DNA of 64,000 nucleotides from positions 20,616,762 to 20,680,761 of the forward strand of contig CM075783.1 in assembly GCA_037974665.1 (NCBI GenBank), written 5' to 3'. Positions within the stretch are counted from its first letter, which is position 1. Every line of letters begins with the position of its first letter. A program made the translations under genes and the position numbers. The notes below the pieces were generated by a model that was given only the letters and a program-made list of their open reading frames with translations, was not told where the DNA came from and made no database searches. Of this stretch, positions 9,843-63,255 are shown piece by piece. Origin of the DNA: Ehretia macrophylla (taxonomy: Eukaryota > Streptophyta > Magnoliopsida > Boraginales > Ehretiaceae).

Positions 9843-12041
9843 TTAAGAGAGTAAACTTCGATAGAAAACGAGAAACACTATAATACTGCTGACCATAACA
9901 ATATCTACCCAATCGACATGCATGCCAATTAATCCCAAAAGCTGGTGTAACTTATCACGATAAATTTCCCATAGTTGGCATAGCTTGTCACGACAAATCC
10001 CCGAAAGGTGGCGTAACTTGTCACGATAAATTCCCGAAAGTTGAACTAACTTATCAAAACAATTTGCCAAAAGCAGGCCTAACTTGTCACGAGAAACTCC
10101 TAAAAGCTTGCCTAAGTTGTGACGAGCAAATGCAATAAATTGTTCTTGCTTTCCTTTTTCTTTTTCTCCGACGTTTAATGATTTTTCATTATGCAATGTG
10201 TAAAAGTGAACCGCAACGATAAGGAAGGAGACACTCATCACTTTCTTATTTGTCATTTTCTCTTTTCCTTCTCTTCTTGACAAAAGCTGGCCTAACTTGT
10301 CACGACAATTTGCAATAAATCGTGCTAACTTTCCTTTTTCTTTTCCGCTTCTTCTTCTTTTTCTCCTCCCTTGGCAAATACTAGCATCAGATAAGACGAC
10401 AAAGTCTAACAGTCCACCCTCTCTTTCTGTTCTCTCTGCTTTTCTCTGTCTTTTCCTCTGCCCTTTTTCCCTTAAAAACCGGCTTAAGATGAGACGACAG
10501 AGTATGAGAATTTGTGCTTCCTTCGCTCTTTCATTAATTTCCTGTCCGTCTTGTCTTCCTTGTTCATTTCCTTCTCCTGTTTTCTGCAACAGGCAGAAGA
10601 CTAGATACGAACATAAAGCAAATCGGTAATTGTTGATTTGTTGTGCCATTCCTTTCTCTTCTAACATATCACGAAGCCGGAAAAGGAGATGACAAAGCGT
10701 ATGAATTACCTCGTTGTTGCTTAACCTTTTTACGGTTCCTTCCTCATTGTGCTCAGGCAGTTGGAGGGTGAATTGACGTAACTCATGAATTAGTTCGTCT
10801 TTGCTTTCCTCTTCCTTTCCTGCTCTTTTTTCCATTCTCAGCTTGTACCCGCAGAAGAAGAGATGTGAAAATAAAAACTGCGTATCACGGGCTAGTTTTT
10901 TCATTCCTTTCTCTTCTAAATATTTAAGAAATGACGATGATATTTTTATGCGGATTGGGAAACGCTCTTTGGCTATCTTCTTTTCTAGACTTCGCCAATT
11001 GTTCATTACAATTGCTTGTGCCCGAGGAAAACGCAGTGTGACGGAATTCAACTTCCATTTTATGAGCGCGAGGATGGCACAACCAGCCAAAACCATCCAG
11101 GTGTTTTTGTGGAGACCAAAGAGACTAATTGCACAATCTAGGACCGAAAAAAGAATAAAATTGAAAATTCCCAAGTCGGTAGGAGGTTGGACTATGGCGA
11201 GGTTAGCTAGCCAATAAATGGCTAAGAAGGATAGCATCGCCAAAAGATAAACTGACTTTTCTTGGATGGAGAACTGAACTAGAGCATAAGTTACCATTCC
11301 AAGAGGGGTTTCAATCAGTTTTATCTTTCCATTAGGGTTTCCTAATGTATATGACCCAACTTTTGATGAAGCAGAAAAATGCCCTGAGATGTTTTTTTTT
11401 CCTAAGATTAATTTGTTTTTGCTAAGAAAGTGCCCTGAGATGTAGGCTGATGTCAGACAAACGGAAAAAGTAGTACTTTGAGCAGCTTGGATAATTCCCT
11501 CAACTTTAGACCGTCCTTGACAAGAAGTGAAGAATACAACTGAGAAAAGTAAAGCTGTAAACAAAGCACAACGAAGTGCGTGCGAGGGAAATGCGAGAAA
11601 AGGGCCTCCGAATCCTAGCAAGATGTTTCTCCCCAGCCCTTTAGATTTTTTGTAGCGTGGAAGAACGACATTGGAAAGCCAAATGAATTGAGACATAGCC
11701 ATAGATAGAAAGCCTCTCCAGGAAAGATTCAACAGCAGGTCGGGCGAAAAACTTGCACCAAGTAAGATTGACACCAAGGAAAGATCTGCAAGGAAGTTTC
11801 CGAGTTCTTTTGGAAGATATTCGATGCCTAGATCAGGCTCCATAACAGGCCGTACAAAGAAGCCATAAAAACTTGAAAAGCATGCAGGGAGATATATGCC
11901 CACATCACGCATAAACGGAATGGATATGGGATCTGGGACAGAAGGGAATTTAACCTTATCCATAGCGAAAAGTGCAATTAATAAAGAGAGGTGGCTGATG
12001 ATGGACCAAAAGTATAAATACCGAATAGACGAAAATTCCAT
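9843..12041 (-). CDS. Multi-pass membrane protein with charged helical tail, unknown family (copy 1, 732 aa)
   Basis: This is an open single-exon gene. The ATG at 12041 matches the MEFSS start of every paralogue; the TTG three codons upstream is not used elsewhere. Residues 1-330 carry about nine or ten hydrophobic segments (for example 12-27, 48-64, 84-98, 154-173, 243-257, 263-283, 291-309, 313-327). The most conserved block is QPPTDLGIFNF, then LDCAISLFGL, then LNSVTLRFPRAQA with NNWRSLEK. Residues 350-600 are Lys/Glu/Arg-rich helices. Residues 600-616 are hydrophobic. Residues 639-705 are 11-residue repeats of the RDKLxxLxxIY type, and 712-729 look like a C-terminal membrane anchor. Paralogue 39380-41146 lacks this last part. 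No known domain is recognised. Function is unknown; a membrane location is inferred. Confidence 0.75.
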   Translation of the reverse strand: MEFSSIRYLYFWSIISHLSLLIALFAMDKVKFPSVPDPISIPFMRDVGIYLPACFSSFYGFFVRPVMEPDLGIEYLPKELGNFLADLSLVSILLGASFSPDLLLNLSWRGFLSMAMSQFIWLSNVVLPRYKKSKGLGRNILLGFGGPFLAFPSHALRCALFTALLFSVVFFTSCQGRSKVEGIIQAAQSTTFSVCLTSAYISGHFLSKNKLILGKKNISGHFSASSKVGSYTLGNPNGKIKLIETPLGMVTYALVQFSIQEKSVYLLAMLSFLAIYWLANLAIVQPPTDLGIFNFILFSVLDCAISLFGLHKNTWMVLAGCAILALIKWKLNSVTLRFPRAQAIVMNNWRSLEKKIAKERFPIRIKISSSFLKYLEEKGMKKLARDTQFLFSHLFFCGYKLRMEKRAGKEEESKDELIHELRQFTLQLPEHNEEGTVKRLSNNEVIHTLCHLLFRLRDMLEEKGMAQQINNYRFALCSYLVFCLLQKTGEGNEQGRQDGQEINERAKEAQILILCRLILSRFLREKGQRKRQRKAERTEREGGLLDFVVLSDASICQGRRKRRRSGKEKGKLARFIANCRDKLGQLLSRREGKEKMTNKKVMSVSFLIVAVHFYTLHNEKSLNVGEKEKGKQEQFIAFARHNLGKLLGVSRDKLGLLLANCFDKLVQLSGIYRDKLRHLSGICRDKLCQLWEIYRDKLHQLLGLIGMHVDWVDIVMVSSIIVFLVFYRSLLS
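9927..10124 (-). repeat. 33-bp coding repeats (11-residue units) in copy 1
   Basis: About five to six imperfect 33-bp units encode successive 11-residue segments (SRDKLGLLLAN, IYRDKLRHLSG, ICRDKLCQLWE, IYRDKLHQLLG). An 11-residue period fits a long amphipathic or right-handed coiled-coil helix. The units sit directly before the last hydrophobic segment. Confidence 0.8.
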
Positions 12042-12225
12042 TTTTATCAATGTCGCGAAAATGGAAGAGAATATTCAGTGTGATGAAAACTTTAAAAAAC
12101 CTGGAAATTGAAGAGAGATCTAGGGGGTAGTGTGGATTTCAGAAGAAGGGCTTCTTTTTATAGCTCAAATGGCCTTGACATAAAACACGCGTTTTCTTTC
12201 CCACTTTGACTTTGCACTCACCGGG
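12042..12225 (-). promoter_or_regulatory. Promoter and leader of copy 1
   Basis: On the minus strand GAGCTATAAAAAGAAG places a TATA box at about 12157-12164, roughly 120 bp before the ATG. Upstream is ACGCGTGTTTTATG, the diverged counterpart of the AAACCGTGTCTG element in the other copies, then GGCCATTTGAGC. The order and spacing match the promoters at 19150, 27515 and 39264. Confidence 0.7.
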
Positions 12226-13500
12226 CAATTTGTTTTAGTTCGTCCCTTTTTGATTACGCAGGATTAAAAGTTTGTAGTAATTAATTTATTAGAGATTAAC
12301 GTTACCAGAAACACGGTTTATTGACAAGATCCATACGTTTTATTGACGTGATAATCGGTAAATAAAATTAGAGTAATTCTAGATTCCTATATTCATTGGC
12401 AAAACAATCCCAAAAAGCTGATCATATAAATAATAAATGGCAGTACAACACTAAATAAAACTAATGCCTCAAACTTCTTATTAATAGCCACGTCTAAGCA
12501 TTTTACTTGAAGATCTCATGACACTAAATAGTGTCGTTAATTTCTAGCTCACAAATGACCAAAAAACATAATTTTTCTAGCCGAAGATGTTTCGTTGCTT
12601 AAATTTAACTGAATTTTGACGGAAAATATTGCGGAATAACTGTTTTTAAACGTTATCGATCGGGAAATATTATGGAGACTATTTCTATATATCACAAATT
12701 AAATAGCATTGACATAAACTATGCTTCGGGTCAGGGTGACGAAATCAAAGGCACAAATTTCCTATTCTTTGGTTGGTATTACAAATTCATAAAAAAAAAT
12801 AATAGGGAAAACTAGTATTATCCTATTAAATCCACTAGATGAATGATAGAAAAGAAGAAAAATAAGATCATTCTCAATAAAGAATCAATCTCAGAACCAA
12901 GCCTGACATGAGTTAGGGAAGCGTAGGGCGGTAAGAGCCTCTTTCTTTCTAATTGTATGCACAACTTGACCTAATGAAGCTAAAAATGTAACAAAAGTGT
13001 TTATAATTAAAAGAAATTATTTCTATCAGGCAGTGTCAGATGGTGCAGTACACAAGTGCAATGGACCCTTTCCCCACCAAGTGTGACAGTGTGTGGACAT
13101 GGACCCCACTAGGATATGTGAGTCTTTCCCATAGTTAAATTTTTTTGAAGTTTCTTAGAACGCATTTGAAAGTAACATAAAATATTAGAGAACTTCAAGT
13201 TGGTCCTTCGGTGATAGTCATTTGGAAGTTACAATTAGGTGCAGATTTATTGGATATCTGATAACAGCGTGGAAGTCCAATGGTCGTATTGCAGGAAAAA
13301 GTGAGCTAGAAATCACAAGTCTTCAATAACTGCCAAAAAAAAAAATTAGTCTTCACAGTCTTCTTTTTCTTTTCAGACTTCTGTTTCTTCTTCCTTTCCT
13401 TCTTTTGGGAAAAGCTTAACCAAATTAATCAAACAAAGTCCAATAATTAACTTTTGACTAGCAAGCTAAACCATGAATTGGAGAAAGTGAAAGAGACGAC
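12126..13500. repeat. Duplicated upstream module, copy A
   Basis: The region upstream of copy 1 is repeated in the same orientation at about 15945-17560. Shared landmarks include CTTCTTATTAATAGCCACGT, GGTTTATTGACAAGATCCAT, TTCTTCTTCCTTTCCTTCTT and GGGAAAAGCTTAAC. The copies differ by many substitutions and by an extra segment at about 16400-16680 in copy B. Confidence 0.85.
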
Positions 13501-13559
13501 AAAACCAAGGACGAAGTGCTTGTTCGAGAATATAGATAAACGATGAAGGAGGCGAGACC

Positions 13560-15944: not shown

Positions 15945-16010
15945 TTCTGAAGAAGGGCTTCTTTGTATAGGTCAAATGGCCTTCACATAAAACACGGTTT
16001 TTGCAGTTCC
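15945..16010 (-). promoter_or_regulatory. Orphan copy of the family promoter
   Basis: On the minus strand it keeps AAAAACCGTGTTTTATGTG, then GGCCATTTGACCTATACAAA and GAAGCCCTTCTTC. These are the same elements and spacing as the copy 1 promoter. The TATA box is altered to TATACAAA. No MEFSS-type coding sequence follows it. Confidence 0.65.
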
Positions 16011-18139: not shown

Positions 18140-18148
18140 AAAAGAATA

Positions 18149-19276: not shown

Positions 19277-20886
19277 ATGGAATTTCCGTCGATTTGGTAC
19301 CTCTCCTTTTGGTCCATCATCAGCCAGGTATCTCTATTAATAGCAGTTGTTGCTCCATATGAGGTCCATCTCCCTGTTCTCCAATTCCCTCATATTATAT
19401 ATATCCCTATATTTTTTTCAACTTTTTATGCCTTCCTTGTACGGCCTATGATGGAACCTGATCTAACCACCGGAAGTGTTTCAAATGAACTCTATCAATT
19501 CTTTAAAACGCTCCTAGTTGTGATAACAATACCATTTTATTCTTGGATGCTTCCGTTGTACCAGCAGTTGACTTTTTACTTCAAAGTGTGTGTGCCATTG
19601 TTAATAGTTTTAGGGGTACCCCGGTGCTTTTTCTATCTTTATCCACGCTATGTGATAAGGAAAGATATGGGAAGCTATGTGATTGGATTTGCAGGCCCTT
19701 TGCGAGTGTACCTCTCTCATACTTTTTTGTGTGTTTCATTTATAGCTTTTTTTTCCTTGGTTGCATAGGTGGTAACTTTTCATGGTCCGTTTGAAGATCA
19801 AGAAATTGTTGAATTCTTTCAATCTCTTATTTCTTCGTTGATAGTAGCATTATTCCTAGTTCAGTTGTGCTTACATCCTTTCCTATCAGGAATTTGGGCA
19901 TCTATAGTTGGAAAGGTAAAAATGATTCAGATCCCTCTTGGGTTGTTAATTTATGTTATAGTTCAGTACAACATCCCAGAAAAGTCAGTTCCTCTTTTGG
20001 TGATGCTGTCTTCCTTTGCCATTTCTTGGCTAGCTATCCTCGCCATGATCTGACCTCCTACTGACTTGGGCATTTTCAATTTTTTTATTGGTGCGATCCT
20101 GGATTCGGCTATAAGTCTCTTCGGACTAGGCAAATTCACCTGGATTGTTTTTGCTGGTTGTGTCGTCCTCCTGCTCTTGCGACAGAAGTTGAATTCTGTG
20201 ACATTGCGTTATCCTCGGCCTCGGGCACGAACAACTATTATGAGTAACTGGCGAAGCCTAGAAATCCAGATAGAGGAGATAGCTCTTTCGTTGTATAAAT
20301 GGACGGCAAAAGAAAATGAAGGAAATAGAAGACTAAGTGATGATAAGTTCAGTTTTTTTTCATATTTCTTGTTTTGCGCGGCTAAGTTAATTATGGAAAA
20401 AATGGCAAGAAAGGAAGAAGAAAGCAAAGACAAGCTTATTGATAAGTTACTTCATTTCACTCTCCACCTGCTAATTAAGCAAAAAGAGGAAGGGACGGAA
20501 GATGAAATGAAGATGAAGAAAAGGTAAAAGATGAGCTAATTTATACATTATGCCATCTCTATTTCCGACTGTATATTGTAGAAGAAAAAGGAACGGAAGA
20601 GCAAACTAAAAATTGCAAAATTGCTCTATGTTCGTATCTAGTCTTTTTCTTGTTGCAGAAGAAAGCACATGAACAAGAGAAAGCAAAAGAAGCGCGAATT
20701 ATTAGACTTTGCCTTTGCAACTTAGGCCAGCTTTGCCGAGAGATGGAGGACACTAGAAAGATAAGGGAAAATAAGAAAGTGAAAATAGTTGAAATTGGAC
20801 TCTCTTTACCAGGACTGATTCCAGGTTCAAACTCATTATGCCATCTTCTTTTCGTTATTTTGTTAGTTTCCTCCCATGGCACCTAG
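19277..20886 (+). pseudogene. Family membrane-protein gene, broken (copy 2)
   Basis: It starts MEFPSIWYLSFWSIISQVSL and runs in one frame to 20527, apart from two stops in place: TAG at 19766-19768 after the segment ending FIAFFSLVA, and TGA at 20051-20053 at the position where the relatives have CAA in the QPPTDLGIF motif. A frameshift near 20520 (AAGAAAAGGTAAAAG) then moves the charged tail to another frame, which continues to a stop at 20884-20886. The family hallmarks ISLFGLGKFTW, LNSVTLRYPRPRA and SNWRSLEIQI are present. The tail ends in a short hydrophobic segment (LCHLLFVILLVSS). With only three lesions it is a young pseudogene, or expressed only as fragments. Confidence 0.82.
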
Positions 20887-21491: not shown

Positions 21492-21527
<36 letters not shown>

Positions 21528-24885: not shown

Positions 24886-24889
24886 TATA

Positions 24890-27627: not shown

Positions 27628-29456
27628 ATGGAGTTTTCTTCGCTTTGGTACCTCTCCATTTGTTCCATCATCAGTCAGGTATCTCTAAAAATTGCCTTTG
27701 TTGCTTCAAATAAGGTGAATCTCCCAGTTCCCAATTTTATTTGGGAAATCTTTTGTTCGAGTCTATTTCTACTTGCATGCTTTTTCATATTTCTATGCCT
27801 TCTTTTCACGACCCATGATGGTGCATGATCTGGATATCGGGGATAGTTCAAAAGAACTCTTCAACTTCTGTAAATTTCTTCTCTTTGTAATTGCTGGTTT
27901 CATAATATTCTCCCTGCGGTTCAGTTTTCCCTTTTCAGAATTTTTAATTCACATTATGGGCACAGTGGTTGTCTCTCAAGTCCTTCCTGGCCGCTTTTTA
28001 AAAATTGCCGAGCTGGGAAGAAACTACTTGATTGGATTTGTAGGCCTTTTTCTAGTGTTCCCCTTTCATACTCTCTGTTGTGCTTTATTTACAGCTTCTT
28101 AGTTTTTAGTTGTATACTCGACTTCTTATCAAGATCGGTATGAAGCTGGGAAGATTCTAGTTGCTGTTAGTTTCTGTTTGAACATTGCAACAGAATTTGT
28201 CCGATGGAATTCGAGTCTTCATCGTAATTTATCACGAATCGGGTCATATATACTTAGGATCCTGAGTGGTTACATAAAATTGATTGAAATATTTATTGGA
28301 TGGTTATTTTACATTCTAGTTCAGTACTTCATCTAGGAAAAGTCGCGTTCTCTTTTGGTGATGCTCTCCTCCTTGGCCGTTTTCTGGCTGGCTAACCTCG
28401 CCATGATCCAACCTCCAACTGACTTGGGAATATTCAGTTTTATTGTTGGTGCTGTCTTGGATTGTGCAACAAGTTTGTTTAGGCTCCACATATTCACCTG
28501 GATTACTTGGGCTGGTTGTGGCTTCCTGGGCTTTCTCTGGTAGAACTTGAATTCAGTGACACCGCGTTATCCTCGAGCACAAGCAGATGTAATACTCAAA
28601 TGGCGACGTCAAGAACAGGAGGTAGCCAGCGAGGGTGGTTTGCTCAGAGTTTTCAGAGCTATGAGGAAGAGAATGCTACTCGGTGGTATTCTGATTTTAT
28701 CATCTGAGCTCTTCTTATTAGCAGAGATGATAAGTAAGCAAAAAAGAGCTAGAAAGGAAAAAGAAATCAAACACATGCTAATTGATAATTTAGAACTCAC
28801 CCTCCAACTGCTTGAGCAGAAGAAGGAAGGAATGGAGAAAAAGAGAATAGCTGAGCTAATTCATACGCTATGTCAACTCCTTTATGGACTGCATAATGTT
28901 GTAGAAGAAAAAGCAATGGCGCCAGAAGAAAAAGAAAAGGAAGAAGAAAAGAATCGGCAAATTGTTCTGTTTTCACGTGTAGTCTTCATCCTGCTGCTGA
29001 ACAGATCAAAAAATACCAGAAGCACTTTTGTAGATTTTTTTTGTGATGTGTTTTTTTTCTGGAAAAGAAATTATTAAAATTATTAAACTTATTATAGAAG
29101 AAGAAAACGTCGCACGAATTATTAAAATTCGCCGTCTCATCTTAGGCCAGCTTTTAATGGAAAAGGAAGAAGCAAAGGAAGATGGACCGAAAAGGACTGG
29201 AGAAGGAAAAAGGAAAGCAAAGAGAAGGCAAATTAGAAAGGGGGGATTATTAGACTTTGTCGTCTCAGATGATGGCGGAAAAATAGAAGAAAATGGAGGA
29301 GAAATAAAGAACATAAAAAATAAGAAACTAAAAGAAGAAGAGGTTGGGCTTTACTTCATGTTGGGTGCTGCCGCCACTTATGAGAGTCAGCGGTTTCGGA
29401 TCGAGAGACGTCGGCCAGAAGCGACGAGCAGTAGTGGTGGAAGCTCTGGAGAATGA
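27628..29456 (+). pseudogene. Family membrane-protein gene, broken (copy 3)
   Basis: It starts MEFSSLWYLSICSIISQVSL. A frameshift near 27775 moves the reading to a second frame, which carries the rest of the membrane half. That frame has stops at 28100 (after CALFTAS), 28334 (before EKSRSLL) and 28541 (just before NLNSVTPRYPRAQ). The charged tail follows to about 29060, where another frameshift leads to the final part ending at 29456. The last part includes KIRRLILGQLL and GGLLDFVVSDD, the latter closely matching GGLLDFVVLSD of copy 1. It then ends in a different sequence (LYFMLGAAATYESQ). It is decayed more than copy 2. Confidence 0.82.
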
Positions 29457-34352: not shown

Positions 34353-35766
34353 ATCGGATGGTTCAATAGATCGTTTCAAAGCACGGTTGGTGGCGAAAGG
34401 GTTTCATCAGCGCCCGGGGGTTGATTTTGATGCCACATTTAGTCCAGTCGTTCGCGCTACAACTGTCAGATTGGTCTTATCCATTGCAGTTCATTTTGGT
34501 TGGGGAATCAGGCAATTGGACATTAATAATGCGTTTTTACAGGGAACTTTGGAGGAGGAGGTGTATATGCACCAACCTACGGGGTTTGTTGACACTCACT
34601 ACCCAGATCATGTTTGCAAACTCAAGAAGGCGATTTATGGCCTGCGCCAAGCGCCTCGAGCATGGTACACAGAATTGAAAGGCTTTCTTTTAAGCATTGG
34701 CTTCCACAATTCCAGAGGTGATACTTCTTTGTTTTCCTTTCGTGCACAAGGTGTCGTGGTTTTTTTGCTAGTTTACATGGATGATATCATCGTCACTGGA
34801 AGTGATTTGCATACTGTTTCTGCTATTATTCACTCTCTTGCCCGTAAGTTTTCACTCAAAGACTTGGGTCGGTTGGACTATTTCTTGGGTGTTCAAGTTA
34901 GTCATTTGAAAGATGGATTGTTTCTGTCTCAATCTAAGTATATTGCGGATTTATTGGCAAAAGTTAACATGTCTGATGCCAAGGGCGTAAGTACACCTAT
35001 GTCTACTTCATGTGTGTTGAAGCTTAATGATGGGTCGAAACCCACTGATGCTAAGCTATACAGAAGTGTAATTGGTGCTTTGCAGTACATGTCGTTTACT
35101 AGGCCAGATTTAGCATTTGTTGTCAACCGACTATCACAATTCATGCACCAACCCACTGAGACACATTGGATAGCAGTCAAGAGAATATTGTGCTACCTCA
35201 AGGAAACTCTGTCTCATGGCCTCTTCATTCGCAAGTCTGATGCACTAAATTTGCATGCTTTTTCGGATGCTGATTGGGCAGGAAACTTGGATGATAGAAG
35301 CTCAACCTCGGCATATGTGGTGTTTCTTGGCAACAATCCGATCAGTTGGGCTTCTCGCAAGCAGAAATCAATTGCTCGCTCCTCTACCGAGGCGGAGTAT
35401 AGGGCGGTTGCTGCAGCAACGGCTGAAATAAATTGGCTGCAAAATCTCTTGGATGAGCTTCAAGTGTCGTTACCTGCTCCACCAACAATATATTGTGATA
35501 ATGTGGGAGCCACCTACCTATGTGCAAACCCAGTGTTTCACTCGCGCATGAAACACATCGCCATCGACTTTCACTTTGTTCGTGATCAGGTGGCAAACAA
35601 AACGCTTCGGGTCTCTCATGTTCACTCGGCTGATCAAGTAGCTGACTCATTGACCAAACCATTGTCCAGGGTACAGTTCCTCCATCAAAAGGTCAAGCTA
35701 GCTGTCATTCCTCGACCGACCAGCTTGAGGGGGCATATTAGAGATAAAACCGAATGCAACAGTTAA
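34353..35766 (+). pseudogene. Copia reverse transcriptase (partial) and RNase H
   Basis: The reading frame enters RT part way through, with [19 protein letters not shown] and then [35 protein letters not shown], and the catalytic YMDDIIVTG motif. RNase H follows: [17 protein letters not shown], then [20 protein letters not shown] and later [14 protein letters not shown]. The frame stays open to 35766, about 40 codons into the 3' LTR. The upstream third of RT, and everything between gag and RT, is deleted. An ATG at 34435 (minor) or the internal start at 34387 could be used, but a working polymerase is unlikely. Confidence 0.88.
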
Positions 35767-39224: not shown

Positions 39225-39379
39225 GGTATAAACCGTGTCTACTGTCAATGCCATTTTCTGAGCTATAAAAAAGAGGCCCTTCACCGATCAACAATATCTC
39301 ACTCACCTCGATATCTAGGTTTTAGTTACACTTTTTACCCCCGATTCTCTTCCATATTTTGCTCACGTTGTCCTGATCA
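39225..39379 (+). promoter_or_regulatory. Promoter and leader of copy 4
   Basis: ATAAACCGTGTCTACTG at about 39229, TGCCATTTTCTGAGC, then TATAAAAAAG at 39264-39273. The ATG follows 116 bp after the TATA box. The leader ends ACGTTGTCCTGATCA. Confidence 0.72.
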
Positions 39380-41146
39380 ATGGAATTTTCGTCCCTTTGG
39401 TACTTCTCCTTGTGTTCCATTATCAGTCAGGTATTTTTACTAATTGCACTCCTTGCTTTAACGAGGGTCAAAACCCCAATTCTTGAAGTCATTTGGGATA
39501 ATTTCGTGTGTTATATATGTGCCCAAGCAAGCTTTTCGTATCTTTATGCCTTCTTTGTCCTTCCTATGAAAGAGCCTGATCTAACCACCGGAAATCTTTC
39601 ACATGAACTCCAAAGCTTCTTTATAAGTCTTATCTTTGTGTCAGAAGCAGCTATGTATTTTCTCTTGTTTTTCGGGTACCAGAAGTTCTCTGTTTTTCAA
39701 CTAGTTGTTATATCATTGATTACGCTTCTATTCGTACACTTTTGCTTTCACTTCATTCATCTACGCTATATAGAAGGTAAAGAGATGGGAAACGTCTTGA
39801 TTGGAATTGGAGGCCCTTTATTAGTGTACCCCACTCATACTCTTTGCTATGCTTTATTTACAACTTCGCTTTTCTCAGTTTCTTACTTGGTTTCTTCTCA
39901 AGGTCCGCGTGAAGCTAAGGAATTGGATCGAATTGTTGTATCGTATGTTGCTTCCTTCATTATGCCATTATGTACATTTTATAGTTACGCACATCCAAAT
40001 TCACGACGATTTTTTTCACATTCACATGAAAAAAACAAGGGAAATATAATAAGCATGATTGGAACCCTTGTTGGCCTGTTGGGTTATGTTCTTGGTCAAT
40101 ACTGGCTCCGAGAAAAGTCAATTCCTCTTTTGGTGATGTTCTTCTCATTGGCCATTCATTGGCTAGCTACCCTCGCCTTGACCCAACCTACTAGAGACTT
40201 TGGAATTCCCAACTTTTTAATTGGTGTGATCCTGGATTGTGCAATCAGTCTCTTTGGGCTCCGCATATTCACCTGGATTGTCTTTGCTTCTTGTGTCGTC
40301 CTCGGGCTCTTGCGGAGGAAGGTGGAGTCTGTGGCATTGCGTTATCCTCGGGCGCGAACATGTATTATGAGCAATTGGCTTAGCCTTGAAAAGAAGATAA
40401 TCAAAACACCGCGACCTTTAGAAATACGACTAGTGGGAATCATTTCAGATAGATTTCGTAGATTAATAGAGATGGAAAAGGAAAGGCTGAGGAGGTTGTG
40501 GACGAGTTTATTTTGTGCTGATAATTCAAGTATGGAAGAAAAGGGATCAGAACAAGAAGAAGAAGAAGGCAAAGATGAGCTAATTGGTAAGTTCATTATG
40601 AAAAATAAGGCAGGCAAGGGCAAAGAAAGCAAAGAAGAACTAATTGATAAGATACGCAATTTCACCCTCCAAGAGCTTGGGCAAAACGAGAATAATGGAA
40701 AGGAAGAAGGAAGCAGTGATGTGCTAATTCATACATTATACCATCTCTATTTCCGACTGTGCAAGGAAGAAGAAAAAGGAAAGGGGGAGCAAACGAATAA
40801 GTATCAAATTGCCTTGTGTTTGTATCAACTCTTAAAAGGAAAGGAAAAGGAAAAAGGAAAGGAAAAAGAAAAAGAGAAAGGAAAGGAAGTAGAAGAAAAT
40901 GAAAAAGAGGTAACAGAAGAAGCTCAAATTATTAGATTATATCGTCTAATTTTTGGTATGCTTTCGCTGGAAGACGGAAGGAAGGAAGTGAAAATAGACA
41001 TACAGCAAAATAAAGAAATAAAGGAAGTAGAAGAACTTCATGAGAAAGAGTTGGCAAAGGAAGCTCAAATTGTAAGACTTTGCCGTCTTATCTTAGGCCA
41101 ACTTTTGCTAAAACAAGGAAAGGGAAAAGAAATAAAAGATGAATAG
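39380..41146 (+). CDS. Multi-pass membrane protein with charged helical tail, unknown family (copy 4, 588 aa)
   Basis: Intact single-exon gene with the family start MEFSSLWYFSLCSIISQVFL. Residues 1-330 hold about nine or ten hydrophobic segments (for example 8-28, 82-99, 105-125, 155-172, 225-243, 248-268, 278-294, 297-311). Conserved points are MKEPDLTTGNL (63-73), GGPLLVYPTHTL (144-155), LDCAISLFGL (285-294), ALRYPRAR (319-326) and SNWLSLEKK (331-339). Residues 340-588 are helical and very rich in Lys and Glu. They include repeated DELIGK/EELIDK-type pieces, a nearly pure KEKEKGKE stretch (486-505), and a repeated motif EAQIIRLYRLIFGML at 514-528 and EAQIVRLCRLILGQL at 561-575. Unlike copy 1 there is no C-terminal hydrophobic anchor. 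The stop lies 15 bp before an LTR remnant, so the tail may have been shortened. Function unknown. Confidence 0.78.
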   Translation: MEFSSLWYFSLCSIISQVFLLIALLALTRVKTPILEVIWDNFVCYICAQASFSYLYAFFVLPMKEPDLTTGNLSHELQSFFISLIFVSEAAMYFLLFFGYQKFSVFQLVVISLITLLFVHFCFHFIHLRYIEGKEMGNVLIGIGGPLLVYPTHTLCYALFTTSLFSVSYLVSSQGPREAKELDRIVVSYVASFIMPLCTFYSYAHPNSRRFFSHSHEKNKGNIISMIGTLVGLLGYVLGQYWLREKSIPLLVMFFSLAIHWLATLALTQPTRDFGIPNFLIGVILDCAISLFGLRIFTWIVFASCVVLGLLRRKVESVALRYPRARTCIMSNWLSLEKKIIKTPRPLEIRLVGIISDRFRRLIEMEKERLRRLWTSLFCADNSSMEEKGSEQEEEEGKDELIGKFIMKNKAGKGKESKEELIDKIRNFTLQELGQNENNGKEEGSSDVLIHTLYHLYFRLCKEEEKGKGEQTNKYQIALCLYQLLKGKEKEKGKEKEKEKGKEVEENEKEVTEEAQIIRLYRLIFGMLSLEDGRKEVKIDIQQNKEIKEVEELHEKELAKEAQIVRLCRLILGQLLLKQGKGKEIKDE

Positions 41147-41489: not shown

Positions 41490-44202
41490 TACTGTTTGCC
41501 ATCTCACTTCCACGTCAGCCAAACTAGTGTCTCTTGGTTTTTGGGCAATTTTCTTCCACATCCAACCTGTTCCTTCTTATTCATTTTGTCGCATTAGTTT
41601 TTCCAAATTCAGCCTTTAAGATAGGAGTTAGGCTTCTATACATATAAGGCTCTCTAATACAAAAAGTGAGCCGTATACACATGAAACCTACTTCCTATTT
41701 CACGTCTATATACGGCATCCGTAAAGAAGCAAAATCTTTAAGATATCCTTTTTACTCACTGTTCATTCATGATGCATATATATATTAAGTTCATTTTTTT
41801 TCTTATGAACATCCTTTTGAGAAGATATATTAATGTAATTAAACAATGTTATACAAGTAATGTACTCGGACACCTAACAACAGTTAGGTGCATAGTCGTG
41901 TAATGATCTGTTGTAGGTTGCGTGTCAATAAATAATTGAATAAATATACTCAAAGGACAACACACCGCTCAATTGCCCCCTCTAATTGTTAATTGAAGAG
42001 TGCAAGAATATTTTATCAAGCCATGATGGCTACAAACTCAACATGTGTAACGGGAAAACAATAAATGTAATGATTTGTTATCTAATTTGACTTAAGCCAA
42101 CAACTCGGAAGTCAGTCTAGAGCATATTCCCGAGTCCTCTACAAGATCTTATAGTACAAGATAAAAGGAGTGTAACATTTTTAAGACTGATTAGTTAGTT
42201 AATCAGCTTCGCGGCCCCCATATACCCACAAATAAAAAAAGAAAGAAAAAGAGCTAAGTTTCTTCGTAGAAATCTTTTTTATATTTCAACTTTCTTAGTT
42301 TTTTATTTTTTATTTTTGGCCTCTTCTACCTAAGCATGTTTCTGATATTGGGAAGTGCGCCATTTCAAGGAAGCTGAAATCGCCAACCAATTTGAATTTG
42401 ATGTCGTCCTGCTTAAGCATAACTAAGAGGAAGTAGAACAAGAAGAAGGGAAAGAAAGATGAAGAAAAGGAAAATTGTTTACGTCAGTGGATAGCGAGGT
42501 TGGTCAAACCCAATCAGTTTCCTATTTAACACATACTCAATTGTCTTTTACACATAGAGGTAAATAGTTGGTATGTCTTGTAAAAGGTACAAGATGGTGC
42601 CAGCGGATTTTGTAATACTGTTATCGTTAGCTTCATTGTAATGAGTATACATTATATGTGATTATACTTAATTAGGATAGTCAAAATATTAACAATAAAC
42701 TGGAACTTAATGATTTTCACTTATTCTGTATAGACTACATCATTGTTATTCCAATTAAAGAATTTGATAGAAAATTGACATTTAACTATATTAGTTATGT
42801 TGTCATTGGCGTGACCGGTATGAATCCGAGCATTATCACAAATTATTTTATCATTCAGCCAAGTGGAAGAACGTTAACTTTTTCATAAAGAGGTATTATG
42901 ACCACACAATGTTACAATTAACAATGGAATTGTTAAATAACAAAATTCATGAACTTATCTCTAACCTCTTAATTATATTATGGTATACTTAGTAAATTCA
43001 TAAACTAAAATAAAAAAATATTGAGTCTGTTGGATCTAATTTGGGCAATAATAAATCCATGAACTTGGAAAGTTCATATAACCACCTACACATACTTTTT
43101 CATTGTGATATACTTAGTGAAATTAGTACGTAGATTTATGAACTTTTCTTGTTAACTTTCACCTCTATGAGATTTGAATCCCGACTCCCAATTACTAGGA
43201 AGAGTAATCTATCATTACATTACCCTCGTTTTCAAAAGAAGTTGGTTCATAAAAAATTCATGTAACATATTATATAATTAAATCCATCATGGGAAAGGAA
43301 GTATAGATTAAAGAGAAAGAAAATTGTAGAACATCATTTTTAAGTGGATCTATATGTAAAAGGCACTTCCGAAATACGTCGTATACTTATACAGTTTCAG
43401 TTTTAGATGGGTAAGAATACCTCATATGAGGCTTCTAACTTCTTTATTGATGTATACACTATGGTAATTTTAGGTCGTCAACGACAATTTGCCAAAAAAA
43501 AAAAAAGTCATCAACTAGAACAATTAAGTCAAGAGAATTCCATAAGAATATAAAGCTTTTTTTAACGTTATTGCAGTGTCTTTGTAGAAATCCAACAACT
43601 TCTATTGATTATTATTACTTTAGGCCAACCTTTTGAAAATTTGTCTACTAACCCCCACTGATATGTGATTTCTAGTTCACTTTTGCTTTGAAAACATGTT
43701 TGACCATTGGGCTTGGACGCAATGATCAAATATCCATTAAAATCTGCAACATGTGGAAACTTTTATAGTTACCAGCGATGACCAACTTGAAGTTTTTTCT
43801 AATGGGAAAATTGCGCAAGTAGCACTCTTATTTTTAAAAAATTTAAATTTATTTTTACTAATTAGAATCAGTCAATTTAATTCATAACATTTAAAAAAAA
43901 AATTGAATTTAATCCCTATCATAAAGAATTTAGTTAAATTAAAACGAAAAATTATTAGTTTCTTGCAACTACTGTTTGGGCGACAAAGTTAGAAACTATT
44001 AAATATTCAATGGGAAACTATTAAATGTTTCTTAACCATTTTTTCAACATGAGATACACTCATTTACCGAAGCAAAAGACGATAATTATCTTATTTTGGT
44101 CAATAAAGAAGACGATAATTAAACTAAGAAAAATTTTGTTGTGTACAAAATTTGGAGGTCTTGCAGAACGCAGTGCGGTTAACAGAGAGCGCTCACTTAA
44201 AA
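41490..44202. repeat. Flanking region, first copy of a duplication
   Basis: Non-coding. Blocks at about 41800-42340, 42530-42690 (with the family 3'-flank module at 42570-42680), 42820-43200 and 43320-43520 recur in the same order at about 44720-48240. No gene is supported; stretches outside these blocks are AT-rich and unassigned. Confidence 0.65.
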
Positions 44203-44505
44203 ATGAACATATTGGCTGGATCCCTAGGCCCTTTACTTGTGCGCCCCTGTCATACTCTTTGTTTTGCTTTATTTATAGCTTCTCATTTCTCACTTAGATA
44301 CTTGCTTTTTGTTCAAGTTCTAGTGGTTGAATCTTATTTAAATGTCCTTTTAAAGGCATTTCTTGTAAGTTCACTGTGCTTCAGAAAATTTATTTCACAA
44401 ATTGGGTCATATATAGGTAGAAACACAAATGGAAAAATAAAAGTAATTGAAATCCCTCTTGGGTTGTTGGGTACTGTTCTAGCTTAATACTACGTACAAG
44501 AAAAG
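44203..44505 (+). pseudogene. Family membrane-protein gene fragment (copy 5)
   Basis: It encodes only the middle of the membrane half: GPLLVRPCHTLCFALFIASH, then RKFISQIGSYIGRNTNGKIK and VIEIPLGLLGTVLA. Then comes a TAA at 44485-44487 where copy 4 has CAA, followed by YYVQEK. Both the start and the rest of the gene are missing. The left edge joins a segment (TTTTGTTGTGTACAAAATTT) that is also found inverted at about 16510-16550. Confidence 0.8.
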
Positions 44506-45919
44506 ATATGATGTGGTAGATCAGTTTTATTATTTGTTCCGAGAGTTTAGGGTTGGATGCAAGCTATGACAAAATATTAACCGTTATAATCGTGTACCAC
44601 AAAGTAATTTAATTTGCATGGACTACTTGTAATTACATGTTTTTATATAGGGTCCCTTTTTATATACATGCAAGATATTAATTCGTTGTTATAAGTTCAT
44701 ATTTTTCAAAGAAACATCCTTCTGAGAATGAATATTAATGGCATTAAACTATGTTATATTACCAGTAATGTACTCAAAGGGACATTCAAGAGTTGGATAC
44801 AATAACCGTATAACGATATATTGTAGGTTTTATCAAATCACAGCTCTCCATTTCATTAAAGAATAAATAAATAAATGTACTCAAAGGACACAATGGCGCC
44901 CCTCTACTCATATATTGAAGGGTGCAAGAATATTTCATCTAGCCTAATCGCTATAAACTCAAGCATGTGGTACCACCAAGTCAACAAATATAATGATTGT
45001 TTAGCTAATTTTGACTTAAGCCAATGACTAAGAAGTCACTCTAAAGCATTCCCGACTCCCCAACAAGACCTTGTACTACAAGATAAAAAAAGGTGTAATC
45101 TTCTAGATGCTAACTATTCAGTAACTCGGTTTTAATTACCTCCATATACCTGCAAATAGAAAGGAAAAAAGAAAAAAAACAAAAAAAAGAAGAAGAAGAA
45201 GAAGAAAAAAGACCTAAGTTTCTTTGCAGGAATCTTTTTTTATTTCAACTTTTCTTAGTTCTTTTTTTTTTTTTTAATTTGCCCCTTCTACTTAAGCATG
45301 TTTCTCATCTTCTTTTATTGTCTTTTACATATTGAGGTAAATAGTTGGTATGTCTTGAAAAAGGTACAAAATTTTGCCAGTGAATTTTGTAAATATTGTT
45401 ATTGTTAGCTTCATTGTATTGTGTGTACATTACATGTAATTATTCCTAATTAGGATATAAGGATAGTCAAATTATGCACGATAAAATGGGACTTAATGAT
45501 TTATACATATTGTGTATGGATTACATCATCGTTATTCCTATTAAAGAAAATTGACATTTAAATATGTTAGTTATGTGCTTAGATAAATATTATGTAATCA
45601 TTGGCGTGACAGGTATAAATCCGACGAGCATTATCACAAATTATTTTATCATCCAGTCAAGTGGAAGAATGTTAATCTTTTCGTAAAGCGGCATTACCCG
45701 ACCGCATAAAGTTGCAATTAGCAATGTAATTGTTAAATGACCAAATTCATGAACACTAGCCTCTTATGTTAAGGTATACATAGTGAATTCATAAAATAAA
45801 TAAATATATAAATAAGTAAATATTGAGTGTCTTGTATCTAAGGCAATAGTAAATCAGCCAACTTGGAAAGTTCATATAAACACCTACGGATATTTCTTCA
45901 TTGTGGTATATTTAGTAGG
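44506..45919. repeat. Flanking region, second copy of a duplication
   Basis: The counterpart of 41800-43120 in the same orientation, including the 3'-flank module at 45346-45455 (GGTATGTCTTGAAAAAGGTA). It is interrupted at about 45920 by a composite insertion. Confidence 0.65.
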
Positions 45920-49539: not shown

Positions 49540-50245
49540 TAATGAACATTAGTCAAATCTTGCATAAGAGTAGTATGAATAGGGTACGAGAAGTCATTGC
49601 CTTCCCTACAATTTTAGCTGACTTTAATCTATTTATTTAGGGTCCTTTAAAGGCTTGTACTATACAAAACCACCAGGCCTTTTTATCTAATCGTGTGATA
49701 ATGTAAGTGTGAAATATTCTGAAATTAATTCTTGTAAATATATTTTTTGATGTATTTTTTACGGGTTATAACTCTTTCGATAAAAAAACAAAATTAAAAG
49801 GCCTGTACAAAGAATATTCCTATGACTCAAAGTTCGGCCCTTTGTCCTGTATGTCATCTTCATCGCTTTCTCTATGGTCTCAAACAAGCACTTGTTGCGT
49901 TTATTTTTTGCATGGCTCAGTCGTCTCTCACACTTTCTCCGCTATTTATCAAATGGGTAAAGTCATGTGAAGCTCTTCAATTAAATGGAAATTAGTAGGA
50001 AAGTTATTAGTCATTAGCTTCAGTGAGTTTTTTACTGCCATTTTTTGGTCTGAAAAAAAATAACTCTTACCGGCACTATAGCGAAACTTCCTGTAACCCT
50101 GCGTCTTCGTGTTTACCACGTATCTTTATTTATTTATTTTTAAAAAAATGGAAAAAGGAGAAACCAAAAAGTGTATAAACCGTGTCTGCTGTCAATGAAG
50201 AATGGGAACTGATCAGCCAAGTACTAGCTAGACTTTTCCTATATT
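49540..50245 (+). promoter_or_regulatory. Truncated family promoter module (copy 7)
   Basis: 49540-50200 follows the upstream region of copy 4 (about 38745-39250), including CATCTTCATCGCTTTCTCTA and ATAAACCGTGTCTGCTGTCA at about 50175. It stops right after CAATG, before the expected TATA box, and continues as unrelated sequence into the CACTA element at 50246. Confidence 0.65.
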
Positions 50246-53016: not shown

Positions 53017-53020
<4 letters not shown>

Positions 53021-57559: not shown

Positions 57560-60500
57560 GAACACTTCTTGCAAAACTAGTGGCATTATCTTCAATAACA
57601 TTATCCTCAATAGTTGATTCACCTTCCACACCAAGATCAAAAATATCTCTAGGGATTGTTTTTATCACGTCCATGGAGGGCACAATAGATCTTGCACATA
57701 GAAAGCTTGTTGCACTTGAGAAGGTATAACATAGGGCTAATGAGTAATGCGCTCCCTGGTATGTGACAACCGTGTAAAATGAACAAGTGTAAACCCATAT
57801 TCATCTTTCTTCACTCATCTCTCCCGTGTGATATCAGCCCAATCACAACGAAATAGCACCACCTTGAATTTTCCAGAATAGTTTAATTCAATTATGTCAT
57901 TAAGCTCACCAAAGTACTCAACATCTCCATCTACAAGATTTGGATCTCGACGAGAAGCAATGCTTGGCGTTGCCAATGTTACAACCACATCATAATTTTG
58001 CGTTCTTTTTTCCCTATTTCCTTCCTTAGTGCGAAACTTAATACCACTGAAATCAAAGCCTTTGAAACTTCTTACAATTGTTGAAGGACCCAAAGAAAGC
58101 AATCTTATTATCTCTAGCACATTCTCATCACATATATTTGATACCTATATAATGAAGGATAAACAATTTTAGCCAAGAAGATTTCTCTCGTAGTACATAA
58201 GTTTTGTGATTGAATAATTTAGTTAAAGAAAAAAAATATTACTTACATGGGTTTTGAACCATGTATGAAATTCGTCTGACACTAGCTGTTGCAATGTGCT
58301 TGGATTATTGCCATATCTTCTATGGGGAAAATTTTAAATCTTGTACCTCTTAAATTCTCTGTAAGTTCAAAAGAAATAGTCTTATTAAAAATATCACATA
58401 AGAACGGTAATTATTAAGTAGTAACTCACGCAACATATGACTCTACTTCATCAAGATGTAACAAGACATATATGTGTACTTGTATCAATGATAAATTATC
58501 CAACACTTTAATCTCAGCTGTTCCCTTGAATATACTACCACTGGAAAGCAAATATTTATCTCTTTCTATGGGATCAATGTCTTTACTCCTACGTGGTCGA
58601 TTGAAAACTGTCTCAATCCCATCAAAGTATCTAGAGCAAAAAGTATGACACTCTTCTACAACGTAACCCTCAGCAATTGAACCTTCTGGATGAGCTTTAT
58701 TGCCAACATACTTTTTGAATACTTTGAAGCACCTTCAGAAAGTTTAAACTGATTATATGATATTAAGAAACATAATTGACAATACATAAATCTAATTAAA
58801 ATAATAATATCTTTCAATAGGATACATCCATCTAAATTGAATAGGACCTGCAACTTTTGCCTCGTCTGCAAGGTGAATGACCAAATGTACTATTATAGTA
58901 AAAAACGATGGAGGAAAACATCTCTCCATGTGACATAATAGTAATGCTGAACGAGATTTCAATATATCCAACTTGTCAACATTGAGTGTCTTACAACATA
59001 TGGCCTTGAAAATACTACTCAATTCAATTATGAGTTTCATAACTTGTTTGTTCATAGACGAGCGTAATGCAACAGGAAGTAGATCTTGCATCAATATGTG
59101 ATAATCATGGGTCTTAAGGGATTGTAATTTTCTTTCCTTAACATTAATAGCCCTTGATATTTGTGATGGATAACCATCAGGTACTTTATATTCTTTAACA
59201 AATTGAGAAATACTTCTTTCTCTTTTCTAGTCATTGAGTAAGAAGCAGGAGGCTAAAACACTTTTTCGTTGGATAGTTCCACAAGATGAAGTTTATTTCG
59301 TATTTCCATGCATTTCAAATCATAGCGAGCCTTTGGGCCATCTTTGCTCTTTCCTTTAATGTTCAACAACATTCCAAGCACATTTTTGCATACATTCTTC
59401 TCGATGTGCATAACATCAAGATTATGACGCAATATATTGAACTCCCAATAAGGCAATTTAAAGAAGATGCTTTTTTTCCCATGACACTGATTCACCAATA
59501 ATCTCATCACCCATCTCAATTTTTGTCTCGTCAAACGTGTCATCTAGGGCACTAGTAACTCTTTTTCTCTTCCTTTTAGAAGTACTTGCTTCATTTCTTA
59601 TATTCACAATGGGTTCATCAATGAAATTAACCCCACGCAACTGTCTTAATGCATCTGACCCCGACAATGTCTTCGGTGCTATCCTCTGTTCCTCAGTCCC
59701 ATCAAAGTCGCACTTTTGTGCTCGAAACTTGTGTGATTGACTCAACCATCGACGATGCCCTAAATAACAATATTTGTGCCCATGATATAGCCACCTTGAT
59801 TCTGTCATATATGCACAACATGGACATGCCTTCTTTCCTTTGGTGCTCCAACCTAATAAATTAGCATAGGCAGGAAAATCATTGATAGTCCATATTAATA
59901 CAGCCCGCATTGTGAAATTTTGTTTACTCGTTGCATCATATGTTTGGACACCTTCCCACAATTGTAACAACTCATCAATAAGTGGCTGAACAAAATTCTC
60001 TATTTTGCCTCCTGGGGCATCTTTTCCTGGGATGATTGTCAACAAGATTAGTGAAGATTGTTCCACGCACATCCACAAAGTTAAATTATACGGCATTAGA
60101 ATGACATGCCATATGCTGTATGCATTGCTCATAGATCCAAATGGATTGAAACTATCACTGGCTAATGCAAGTCTAACATTACATGGATCATTAGCAAAAA
60201 AAGAATACCTTTAATCAAATGCCTTCCACGCAAGTGAATCGGCAGGATGTCTTAAAAGTCCATCTTTTATGCGGCCTTGGTCATGCCATATCATTGAGGA
60301 TGATATTTTTGATGACATATACAATCTTTGTAACCTGGGGATTAATGGAAAATATCTCATAACTTTACAAGCAATTTGTTTCTTTTTGTATCTTCTACCA
60401 TTAACTCCATTCTCCTGTTGCCAACGAGAAGAATTACAAACATGACAGGATTGTTGCTCTGCTCTAACACCCCTATACAACATACAGTTATTTGGACATA

Positions 60501-61262
60501 CATCAATATTTTCATACCCCAAACCTAAAGAATTTGTTATCTTCTTTGCTTCGTATAAAGTTTTAGGAATATTTGATTCTGGAAATTGTTGTTTCAAAAA
60601 TTTAAGAAGCATGTCAACTGATTTTCCACTCCATTTGTAGTAGGATTTTATGTGCATGAGTTGGATGGTAAATGATAATATGGTAGATTTGGATCTAGGA
60701 TAAATTTCTTTGTTACCTTCTTAAAAGAATTAAAAAAACCCGGCAGCTTCTTCATTAGGACCATTTTCACTTTGAATGTGAGGCTCAACATTAGGATCGC
60801 CGTCATTTTCGTTATCTCTTTCTACATCTTCTCTCATTGCATTTGATATATCATGAATTCCAAATGCATCCCTCATTAACTCATCTTCATTTATTGCATT
60901 TAATGTATCATGAATTCCAAAAGTATCTCTCACTAACTCGTGCATATTGTAATTTTCTTCAAGTGGACTATCGTGTGATGAATTTGAAGCAATTGGAGAT
61001 GGAAAATCTGTAGTTACAAAATCATCTCCACGGCAAACCCAAACAGTATATCCCTTGGTCATTTGCAAACTACATGATTTTTCACATCATCGCGCTTTTG
61101 ATATAGACGATTGACACACATAACACAAGGGCATAATATTTTTTGAGGTGTACTAGCATCGTAAGGTGGAGTACATTGACTAAACGCAAAATCAAGAAAC
61201 ATCTCTAAGCCATTTTCATATTCGTCGCTATATCGTGGCTTCGTCATCCAACTTTTATCCAT
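57560..61262 (-). pseudogene. CACTA transposase (tnp2 / Transposase_21 type), decayed
   Basis: It starts MDKSWMTKPRYSDEYENG at 61262 and holds the Transpos_assoc domain (CPCVMCVNRL). A frameshift near 61060 follows. An acidic linker precedes KWSGKSVDMLLKFLKQQFPE, LGLGYENIDVCPNNC, CHVCNSSRWQ and PRLQRLYM (Transposase_21), with an in-frame TAA at 60211-60213 inside the expected AFD-RY junction. The catalytic region continues with DEPIVN and ENF-type segments to a frameshift at a run of seven A near 59474, then FKLPYWEFN and RHNLDVMHIEKNVC. DUF4218 (PPSFFTIIVHLVIHLADEAK, IQFRWMYPIER) lies at 59094-58792 and continues at 58735-58640. DUF4216-like sequence (VVLFRCDWAD) lies at 58120-57815, and decayed sequence to about 57560. 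At least three lesions make it non-functional. Confidence 0.88.
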
Positions 61263-62267
61263 TGCTATATCTATAACAATAAAATTAAGATATAGTGTTA
61301 TAACTAATATAAAAAGAAAATATCATATGCACCCTACACATTGTTATTTTTTAGCAAAGAAATATTAGAGACAACTATTAAAAATAAAAATCATGCCTGT
61401 ACTATTTCTATAGCTCAGTAGAAAAAGAGTCAATTCCAATTTATGTTAGGCTTTATTTTGATTTAAATCTTTCTCATTTTTTCAAAAAATAAAAAATTAA
61501 TCAAAAAAAAAGTCATTATTTCTTCAAATTTACATTTATGTAGACCCAATACCAATTTAAACACTTTTAAAGAAAAGGGTTCCGATATACATGATGAGGA
61601 AAAACATAGGAGCATATTATGAAGGATCAAGAAAAATCTTGAAGAAACACAGTTGCCAAATTGAACTTACTAGTTAGTTTATAGCTCGAACTTGATATTG
61701 AAACTCCTGATGAAAAGGTAGAAATTGAAATACTATCAATTATAATTAAGGAAATCAATGAAGTACAACAACAAACTGAGAAAAAAAGGCAAACTTCAAA
61801 TTGTTTAACTAACCTGGATATTTTATGCTTGAAGAAAAGTTATGCAAATTTTGAGGAAGTAAAGTTGGAAATTTACGGATATTTTTATATTGCCATTTTA
61901 CAAATAGGCGGCGCTTCCTAAAATGCCGCTTATGTACCATATGACTTATTATCAAATAGGTGGCGTTAGTAAACTCAGCTTATGTTAACTTAGAATAAGC
62001 GGCGCTTGTGTAAATGCCGCGTATAGCGAAATGACTATAATAGTATTTGTTATTCGCGACATTTAATATAAACGCCACCAATTCTCAACTATTTTGGCGC
62101 AAATTTTTCAAGCTAAATTCTCATTGCAGGTTAGTGGCGTTCTTTTCATATCATAAGTGGCAATTTTACAAAACGTCGCCTAAGGTGTGGCCCATCCTCT
62201 AATAGGTGGCGCTCTATTAAAATGCTGCTAAGTAAGTGCCACTTATCTCCATCTTTTTTTTGTAGTG

Positions 62268-63121
62268 ATCGACTGGTTACGAGCTTGGGCTATTGAATAT
62301 ATAGTGGAGGGTTCTCCCTTGTGTTTGAGATGACGCGTTTTCCAGTTGGGGTCCACTATGGGCTTGGCTGGGGGAACAAAGTCGTGAGGAGCACGCACGG
62401 GTTAATCCGTGGTGAAGCCAAAATGGACAATATCATCTTAGTAGTGCGCTTGGGGTTAATCCCACGGCATCATGTCATCATCAACATAAACTACACATAT
62501 ATTCAATGAAGAAAACAGAAAGAATTAATGAAGAATGGCGATGTGTACAATGCATTTGGAAAAAAAAAAATCATTTCACTGCCAAACTCGCAAGAAACTA
62601 AACTCCATGAACATGAACATTTTCCACAATGAGTACTCATTCACTAGCCAAATTAACACCTGCATCAATATTGATCAGATAGACAAATTCTTCAACTTGG
62701 AAACAGTGCATGAAATCATGTCATACGACATTGATGACCATATTAGGCACATATGAAGGTGATAATGCTAACATTACTAACAAAGACGGGCCGGGTGGTG
62801 GGTGACGGGGTGGGGTGGGGTGGGGACGTTTGGGGGGTTGGGAAAGATGACTATTTTTTTGTTTTTGTTTTTTTTTTTTTGTTTTTCTTTAAAAAGGGTA
62901 ATTTGATCAATTCTTATAATTATTTAATAAATAAATTCGTTAAAAATTAATAAAAATTTCACTTAACGCATGTGAAGTACACTATCCGTTAAATTTAACG
63001 GATTTTTTAACGGTAAGGGATGTTGTGCACTTTTAAAAAACCACAAGGACTAGTTCAGGGGGTTTTTAAAGTATAGGAGATGTTGTACACTTTCGCTAAA
63101 ATATAGGAGGGTCTAATGCAT
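62268..63121. other. Insertion debris between promoter copy 7 and fragment copy 6
   Basis: 62268-62480 (GGGTTCTCCCTTGTGTTTGA, GCCAAAATGGACAATATCAT) looks like a degraded plant LTR-retrotransposon end. 62530-62760 has a short open frame I cannot identify. 62780-62850 is very G-rich. 62980-63120 carries TTAACGGATTTTTTAACGG and repeated AGGAGATGTTGT-type phrases of unknown origin. Confidence 0.35.
62807..62825 (+). other. G-quadruplex-forming motif
   Basis: Four runs of GGGG separated by single T, an ideal G-quadruplex pattern, within a longer G-rich stretch (62785-62843). Confidence 0.75.
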
Positions 63122-63255
63122 TTCACCCACTAAGTTTTAATTACACTTTTTACCGCGATTCTCTTCCATATTTTGCTCACATTGTTCTGATCATGGAATT
63201 TTCGTACCTTCGGTACTGCTCCTTATGTGCCATTATCAGTCAGGTATTTTTATAA
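63122..63255 (+). pseudogene. Family gene start fragment (copy 6)
   Basis: The leader TTTTAATTACACTTTTTACC to TTGTTCTGATC matches copy 4. The ATG at 63193 opens MEFSYLRYCSLCAIISQVFL, then TAA at 63253-63255. At that point (ATTGCACTTCCCTG) the family sequence stops and the 13.9-kb module begins, so the rest of the gene is gone. The TATA region is also missing; the matching upstream half may be the promoter at 49540-50198. Confidence 0.8.

Follow-up and report, generated by a model that had tools for sequence, protein, structure and literature searches.

Immune receptors and self-incompatibility genes account for most of the large gene clusters of plants that are under diversifying selection. 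Here, we describe a cluster whose product is a multi-pass membrane protein, found through a 64-kb window (the whole stretch of DNA analysed) of the Ehretia macrophylla genome, on contig CM075783.1 (C20; G000:C20:20616762-20680761, in an assembly of 1.58 Gb and 20 contigs). What we observe directly is a family of multi-pass membrane proteins gathered in one cluster, with intact reading frames, a tail-less branch and diversifying selection at repeatable sites.

The locus can be set against several described systems. Like the S-locus F-box (SLF) clusters of S-RNase self-incompatibility, it holds many diverged paralogues under diversifying selection at one locus, but its products are membrane proteins, with no F-box in 22 members and no RNase T2 in the cluster. 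Plant NLR clusters show the same birth and death, diversifying selection and segmental duplication, whereas NLRs are soluble multi-domain receptors with no Pfam domain in common with the family described here. The Papaver PrpS/PrsS system offers a multi-pass membrane recognition protein; however, PrpS is far smaller than the family proteins, and no Self-incomp_S1 match lies in the cluster. Proteins with DUF4220 (PF13968) are likewise of plant origin, multi-pass, encoded in long single open frames and clustered in this genome, but they differ in having no profile match to the family and in being under purifying selection (omega 0.24). Outside plants, the wtf drivers of Schizosaccharomyces may offer a parallel in that they are multi-pass, multi-copy and fast-evolving and occur in long and short forms; wtf4 yields both a short poison and a long antidote, and has six predicted membrane helices (PMC5478261). 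In contrast, wtf genes are fungal and intron-bearing, and a single gene gives both forms (PMC5478261).

Family copies in the window and across the genome

Six places in the window encode the membrane-protein family, two of them open and the other four broken or fragments. The first open copy, at 9843-12041 on the minus strand, has 732 codons plus stop, with the family match spanning 9846-12041, and encodes a membrane core, a long charged tail and a last hydrophobic segment. Its ATG lies at 12041, and an alternative TTG at 12050 would give 735 aa. The second, at 39380-41146 on the plus strand (family match to 41161), encodes 588 aa, of which residues 1 to about 345 form the core and the rest a Lys/Glu-rich tail. 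Elsewhere on C20 there are two near-copies of the 732-aa protein (one at 99%, the other at 95-98%) and, outside the window, four copies of the 588-aa protein at 92-93%. Because these relatives match at up to 99% and 93%, respectively, a chance origin of the window copies is excluded.

Pooling four protein queries, we found at least 145 separate family places within 3.2 Mb (C20:18694054-21901559), or 144 when places were merged with a wider gap, with 122 on the plus strand and 23 on the minus strand. Three further copies, each with stops, lie at C20:26.1-26.9 Mb, 4-5 Mb beyond the cluster, and a single scored place lies off C20, an open copy at C4:21064690. Thus, 148 of the 149 pooled places are on one chromosome, 145 of them within the 3.2 Mb; all such genome counts, elsewhere in the genome too, are lower bounds, as only the best candidates were scored. 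Defining an open core as a match from residue 1 to at least residue 333 without a stop, we counted 55 open cores among the 116 matches of one query (one of these on C4), and another query added one, giving at least 55 among the 148 C20 places. Many of the places that are not open are fragments. The original prediction, made from the window alone, had described a rapidly decaying family, local to 53 kb, in which only two copies are open. Two open copies is right for the window and wrong for the family, and the window proved to be a 64-kb sample of a 3.2-Mb cluster. The apparent rapid decay arose because the window is too small a view of that cluster; besides the open cores counted above, the number of stops expected under neutrality (below) makes the frames look kept.

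Spacings of about 96 kb, 60.5 kb and 1.245 Mb recur between family copies, which points to layered segmental duplication or to partly uncollapsed haplotypes. At C20:18.69-19.09 Mb, copies follow one another at steps of about 96 kb, and five of one type each carry one TAG somewhere in the core. The regions C20:19.8-20.0 Mb and C20:21.05-21.2 Mb show a near-constant 1.245-Mb offset across 16 copy pairs, a pattern that either a large duplication or a haplotype duplication in the assembly could give.

Diversifying selection on the membrane core

Selection was analysed on the 338 core codons of 26 copies, kept from 42 open reading frames (ORFs) by a 98.5% redundancy filter; the 42 have an open core from the family start, and partial and frame-broken copies were left out. 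The whole-core omega (the ratio of nonsynonymous to synonymous substitution rates) was 1.044 under the one-ratio codon model M0 in IQ-TREE, whose likelihood (-12154.09) our own site-model script matched. Allowing a class of positively selected sites raised the log-likelihood from -11993.69 (M1a) to -11886.04 (M2a), twice the difference (2dlnL) being 215, and M8 against M8a gave a 2dlnL of 210; all six nulls simulated under M1a gave values of about 0 to 5.17. In M2a, 31% of sites fall at omega 0.32 and 24% at 2.97, so the whole-core value near 1 reflects purifying and diversifying sites that cancel. The original prediction had named neutral dN/dS among its grounds for refutation, a rule that would mislead here, where a mean of 1.04 goes together with site-wise diversifying selection. 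Its guess that the genes are under conflict is backed by the site models and by the cross-validation that follows.

A posterior above 0.95 was reached at 42 sites, 39 of which fall in residues 41-48, 78-128 and 184-212. In the 588-aa copy these hot stretches correspond to 39500-39523 (codons 41-48), 39611-39763 (codons 78-128; putative helices 3-4) and 39929-40015 (codons 184-212; putative helix 6 and the following loop), all on the plus strand. The three stretches were drawn post hoc from the posterior sites, and a test on 18 copies is free of that choice: sites picked in those copies and applied to the eight A-group copies gave an omega of 5.17 (95 sites; 2dlnL 31 against an omega of 1), and the remaining 243 sites gave 0.88 in the same eight copies. 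Per-site estimates from the 18-copy and A-group sets correlated (Spearman 0.48), and 11 of the 17 A-group sites recur among the 60 sites of the 18-copy set.

Sets were also tested alone on gap-free columns only (A, A plus L009/L010, B, C, D and E). The M2a gain was significant in A (2dlnL 30.5), A plus L009/L010 (50.0), B (14.2) and E (18.4), and whole-core omega exceeded 1 in A (1.62, p 0.027) and in A plus L009/L010 (1.58, p 0.003). Repeatable sites with omega above 1 were found in independent clades by the cross-validation above, and were not seen in clades C and D taken alone. DUF4220 membrane proteins from the same genome, used as a control, gave an omega of 0.238 and no M2a gain, although this control is imperfect, consisting of 6 of 54 matches, the best-scoring dispersed copies and not a young tandem cluster. 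DUF4220 genes and fragments, some with stops, also form a cluster of their own at C13:78.9-79.9 Mb, which would make a better young-tandem control.

The core tree holds about 3,028 substitutions, and with a stop-producing fraction of 4.2% some 129 stops would be expected without selection, a figure conditional on the tree copies having been chosen for being open. Three terminal branches with 289-299 substitutions each carry no stop, for which the probability is 2e-6 to 4e-6 each. Pairwise analysis covered 14 pairs. Between the 588-aa copy and L009, 35% of core residues differ at a fourfold distance of 0.13, and synonymous divergence (dS) is similar in the hot stretches (0.168) and in the rest of the core (0.147); for the 588-aa copy and L013 it is less even (0.322 and 0.154).

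Protein anatomy and the tail-less branch

All 42 ORFs begin with M-E-[FV]-[SP]-S and have a core of some 345 residues in common. An early stop, in or before the tail, is present in five (L007, L025, L026, L028 and L050). Averaged hydropathy shows about ten membrane segments in the core, which probably represent ten helices. Both core ends are predicted to be cytosolic, and the charge pattern broadly fits this arrangement, although the loop at residues 59-77, which it places inside, is acidic. The charged tail is probably cytosolic as well, and the genes, apparently without introns, seem to be single-exon. These features support the original description of a multi-pass membrane family with charged tails. 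The motifs that it called fixed are conserved and do vary, QPPTDLGIFNF being QPTRDFGIPNF in the 588-aa copy.

Lys/Glu-rich tails follow the core in most branches seen. In one branch (L057, L059, L060, L063, L064 and L065) the stop comes just past the core. Beyond that stop, all six copies carry tail-like sequence that matches weakly (lowest E in each copy, 1.9e-5 to 0.008) and that, in five of the six, has stops in the frames shown. Such remnants indicate that the tail was probably ancestral in this branch and then lost. The branch has since diverged to a fourfold distance of 0.35, and 8 of the 11 copies in the group nearest L059 (94-100% identity) are free of stops. The C4 copy is also tail-less, and its flank gave no convincing remnant of a tail.

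Upstream of the coding sequence, CCGTGT followed about 30 bp on by a TATA-like box is present in most of 16 aligned representatives, and 38 of the 42 copies have CCGTGT or CCGCGT no more than 250 bp from the start, by a loose pattern for which no chance expectation was computed. For the 588-aa copy this promoter-like block lies at 39230-39280 (plus strand), with CCGTGT about 147 bp and the TATA-like box about 117 bp upstream of the ATG; for the 732-aa copy it lies at approximately 12150-12200 (minus strand), with the TATA-like box about 122 bp upstream. We considered constraint on the block, which the comparison does not show: between clades, the block averages 0.64 identity and fourfold sites 0.70, with the block the more similar of the two in 25 of 103 pairs. 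Being less similar than fourfold sites, the block reflects common descent and not constraint.

Searches for a known family

Family scans used alignment A2, with 22 copies. Against Pfam, the 22 members gave no consistent match, the lowest E being 0.03 and any one family appearing in three of them at most, and none matched NLR, kinase or LRR domains associated with defence. The same scan found an F-box in 0 of 22 and a transposon domain in 0 of 22, terminal repeats not having been searched for. Against NCBIfam (20 of the 22 rescanned singly), no match was above its curated cut-off and no family was found in more than three members; the rescan showed AuxB alone, which was also the strongest match at E 5.5e-5, with 22.3 bits in L018 and 15.6 in L012 against a cut-off of 300. 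A broken fragment at 19277-19768 of the window matched PTR2 at E 0.0037, with 16.7 bits against a cut-off of 27. A family profile search of PDB yielded no match at E up to 1, and no relatives were found in the viral and prokaryotic collections searched. A literature search for such a family found no papers, which says little, and the family may well be present, unnamed, in plant databases. That it was not recognised as a named family in the original prediction agrees with the absence of consistent Pfam or NCBIfam matches and of any PDB match. Kinship with DUF4220, suggested by the look of residues 270-300, was tried and rejected: the profile matched none of the 22 members at E up to 1, the hhalign probability of 0.3% is not above reversed or block-shuffled controls, and none of the 54 DUF4220 matches in the genome is on C20.

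Other features of the window

The tail of the 732-aa copy contains six tandem repeats of 33 bp (11 residues) at 9933-10131 on the minus strand (nt 1911-2109 of the coding sequence by TRF; period 33, 6.0 copies). Its sister copy L055 differs from it by a seeming gain and loss of 11-residue units. Family protein comparison located broken copies with internal stops, both on the plus strand, at 19277-20883 and 27628-29344; translation of 19277-20506 is 97% identical to an open copy at C20:20749240, and that of 27731-29065 is 91% identical to one at C20:19262325. A fragment at 44167-44532 (plus strand) is nearest to the tail-less-type copy L065 (75%). Gene-less upstream-like DNA at 49722-50197 (plus strand) has 78% identity to the region upstream of the 588-aa copy, and a stub at 63130-63252 (plus strand) consists of an upstream block (63130-63193) and the first 20 codons only (63193-63252). 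Six coding places and two upstream-like blocks were thus refound, as the original prediction had counted six coding copies or fragments and two gene-less promoters.

The window holds eight ORFs of at least 150 aa, among which the confident domain matches are transposon ones: a Copia-type reverse transcriptase ORF (RVT_2) at 34387-35766 and a piece of tnp2 transposase at 59458-60132. The ORF at 4806-5651 gave nothing beyond a weak protease-like match (E 0.026). No Rfam families or tRNA genes were found in the window.

Discussion

The family and the selection acting on it are well supported. Diversifying selection at the same sites across clades of a many-copy cluster is a mark of recognition genes in an arms race, and because the same sites diversify here in separate clades of such a cluster, we read the proteins as membrane recognition proteins. 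The best reading of the sequence, and a fairly probable one, is a large birth-and-death cluster of fast-diversifying recognition membrane proteins in an arms race. Segmental duplication would make new copies, many of which would die, and the survivors would be driven apart at one surface, to which the beginning of helix 2, the hairpin of helices 3 and 4, and helix 6 plus the loop after it would contribute. In the likeliest mechanism, recognition, this changing surface would bind a fast-changing partner, such that different versions within one cluster would be favoured. We infer that the genes are expressed and that a partner exists, which could be a pathogen, a mate or a selfish rival.

Several observations weigh against this reading. 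Some near-identical copies may be uncollapsed haplotypes. The M2a gain is not significant in C (2dlnL 0.12) or D (2.3), whole-core omega is not different from 1 in B, C, D and E, and fourfold sites are kept at least as well as the promoter-like block. Among the pairs, older ones have a whole-core omega of 0.55-1.02, two recent clade-B pairs have hot-stretch values of 0.63 and 0.82, and for the 588-aa copy and L007 the hot stretches (1.33) are not above the rest (1.55). Tail omega is 0.71-0.99, with one of four tail tests non-significant. Helical periodicity of the selected sites, assessed over 12 overlapping segments uncorrected for multiple tests, is clear at 105-122, marginal at 76-96 and in the cold segment 226-242, and absent in helix 6. 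Finally, synonymous divergence between clades A and B ranges from 0.05 to 0.31 among 30-codon segments of the gene, which makes some gene conversion likely, although it would not yield the cross-validated omega excess.

What the proteins might recognise divides the more specific explanations. They could act in defence at a membrane, either targeted by molecules of pathogens or pests or serving as decoys or sensors for them, with copies that diversify to escape or to catch these molecules; the size of the cluster, its segmental duplication, its pseudogenes and its diversifying selection are like those of plant immune clusters, but the lack of NLR, kinase and LRR domains in all 22 members leaves this a tentative possibility. 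A recognition locus of multi-pass membrane proteins for self-incompatibility or pollen competition, which the single dominating locus with its many diverged paralogues under diversifying selection would suit, is somewhat unlikely, given that none of 108 RNase T2 matches and none of 50 Self-incomp_S1 matches falls in C20:18.69-21.90 Mb, the nearest RNase T2 match on C20 being at 36.29 Mb. A dense cluster of dozens of RNase T2 exon matches, which could be a tandem RNase array, lies at C2:13.76-14.31 Mb. By analogy with wtf, the copies might instead form a selfish poison/antidote or drive family racing each other. Multi-pass proteins in a large, fast-evolving family, long-tailed and tail-less forms with a common core, and a short form open in 8 of the 11 copies of its closest group are consistent with this, but of a wtf-type poison and antidote pair only the existence of long and short forms was seen here, and these differ at the C end and belong to different genes; we consider it improbable.

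Two explanations would dispense with recognition altogether. Under relaxed, non-functional amplification, segmental duplications would carry dead copies along, and their drift would bring omega near 1, in keeping with the mean of 1.04, with an omega no different from 1 in four of the six sets and with over half of the 148 C20 places not being counted as open cores. Against it stand the roughly 129 stops expected and none found in the copies used (chosen as open), the 31% of sites at omega 0.32, and the cross-validated omega of 5.2, an amino-acid excess at sites fixed in advance, which together make it very improbable. That the family is a transposon-encoded protein that spread its own copies is extremely improbable: transposon remains are present in the window, but the Pfam scan found no transposon domain in the 22 members, and the concentration of 148 of 149 places on a single chromosome, with 145 inside 3.2 Mb, speaks for duplication and not transposition.

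Returning to the arms-race reading, the cluster is also a candidate, though a rather unlikely one, for an undescribed single-locus plant recognition or killer/antidote system of some 50 open ten-helix copies, in which a long-tailed and an anciently tail-less class would have one fast-changing surface in common and would help or oppose one another in gametes. The cluster is comparable in size to immune and self-incompatibility clusters, and its product is a multi-pass membrane protein outside the curated families searched. With its hot stretches, its many intact copies and a class without tails, the family allows a direct test of what it might recognise.

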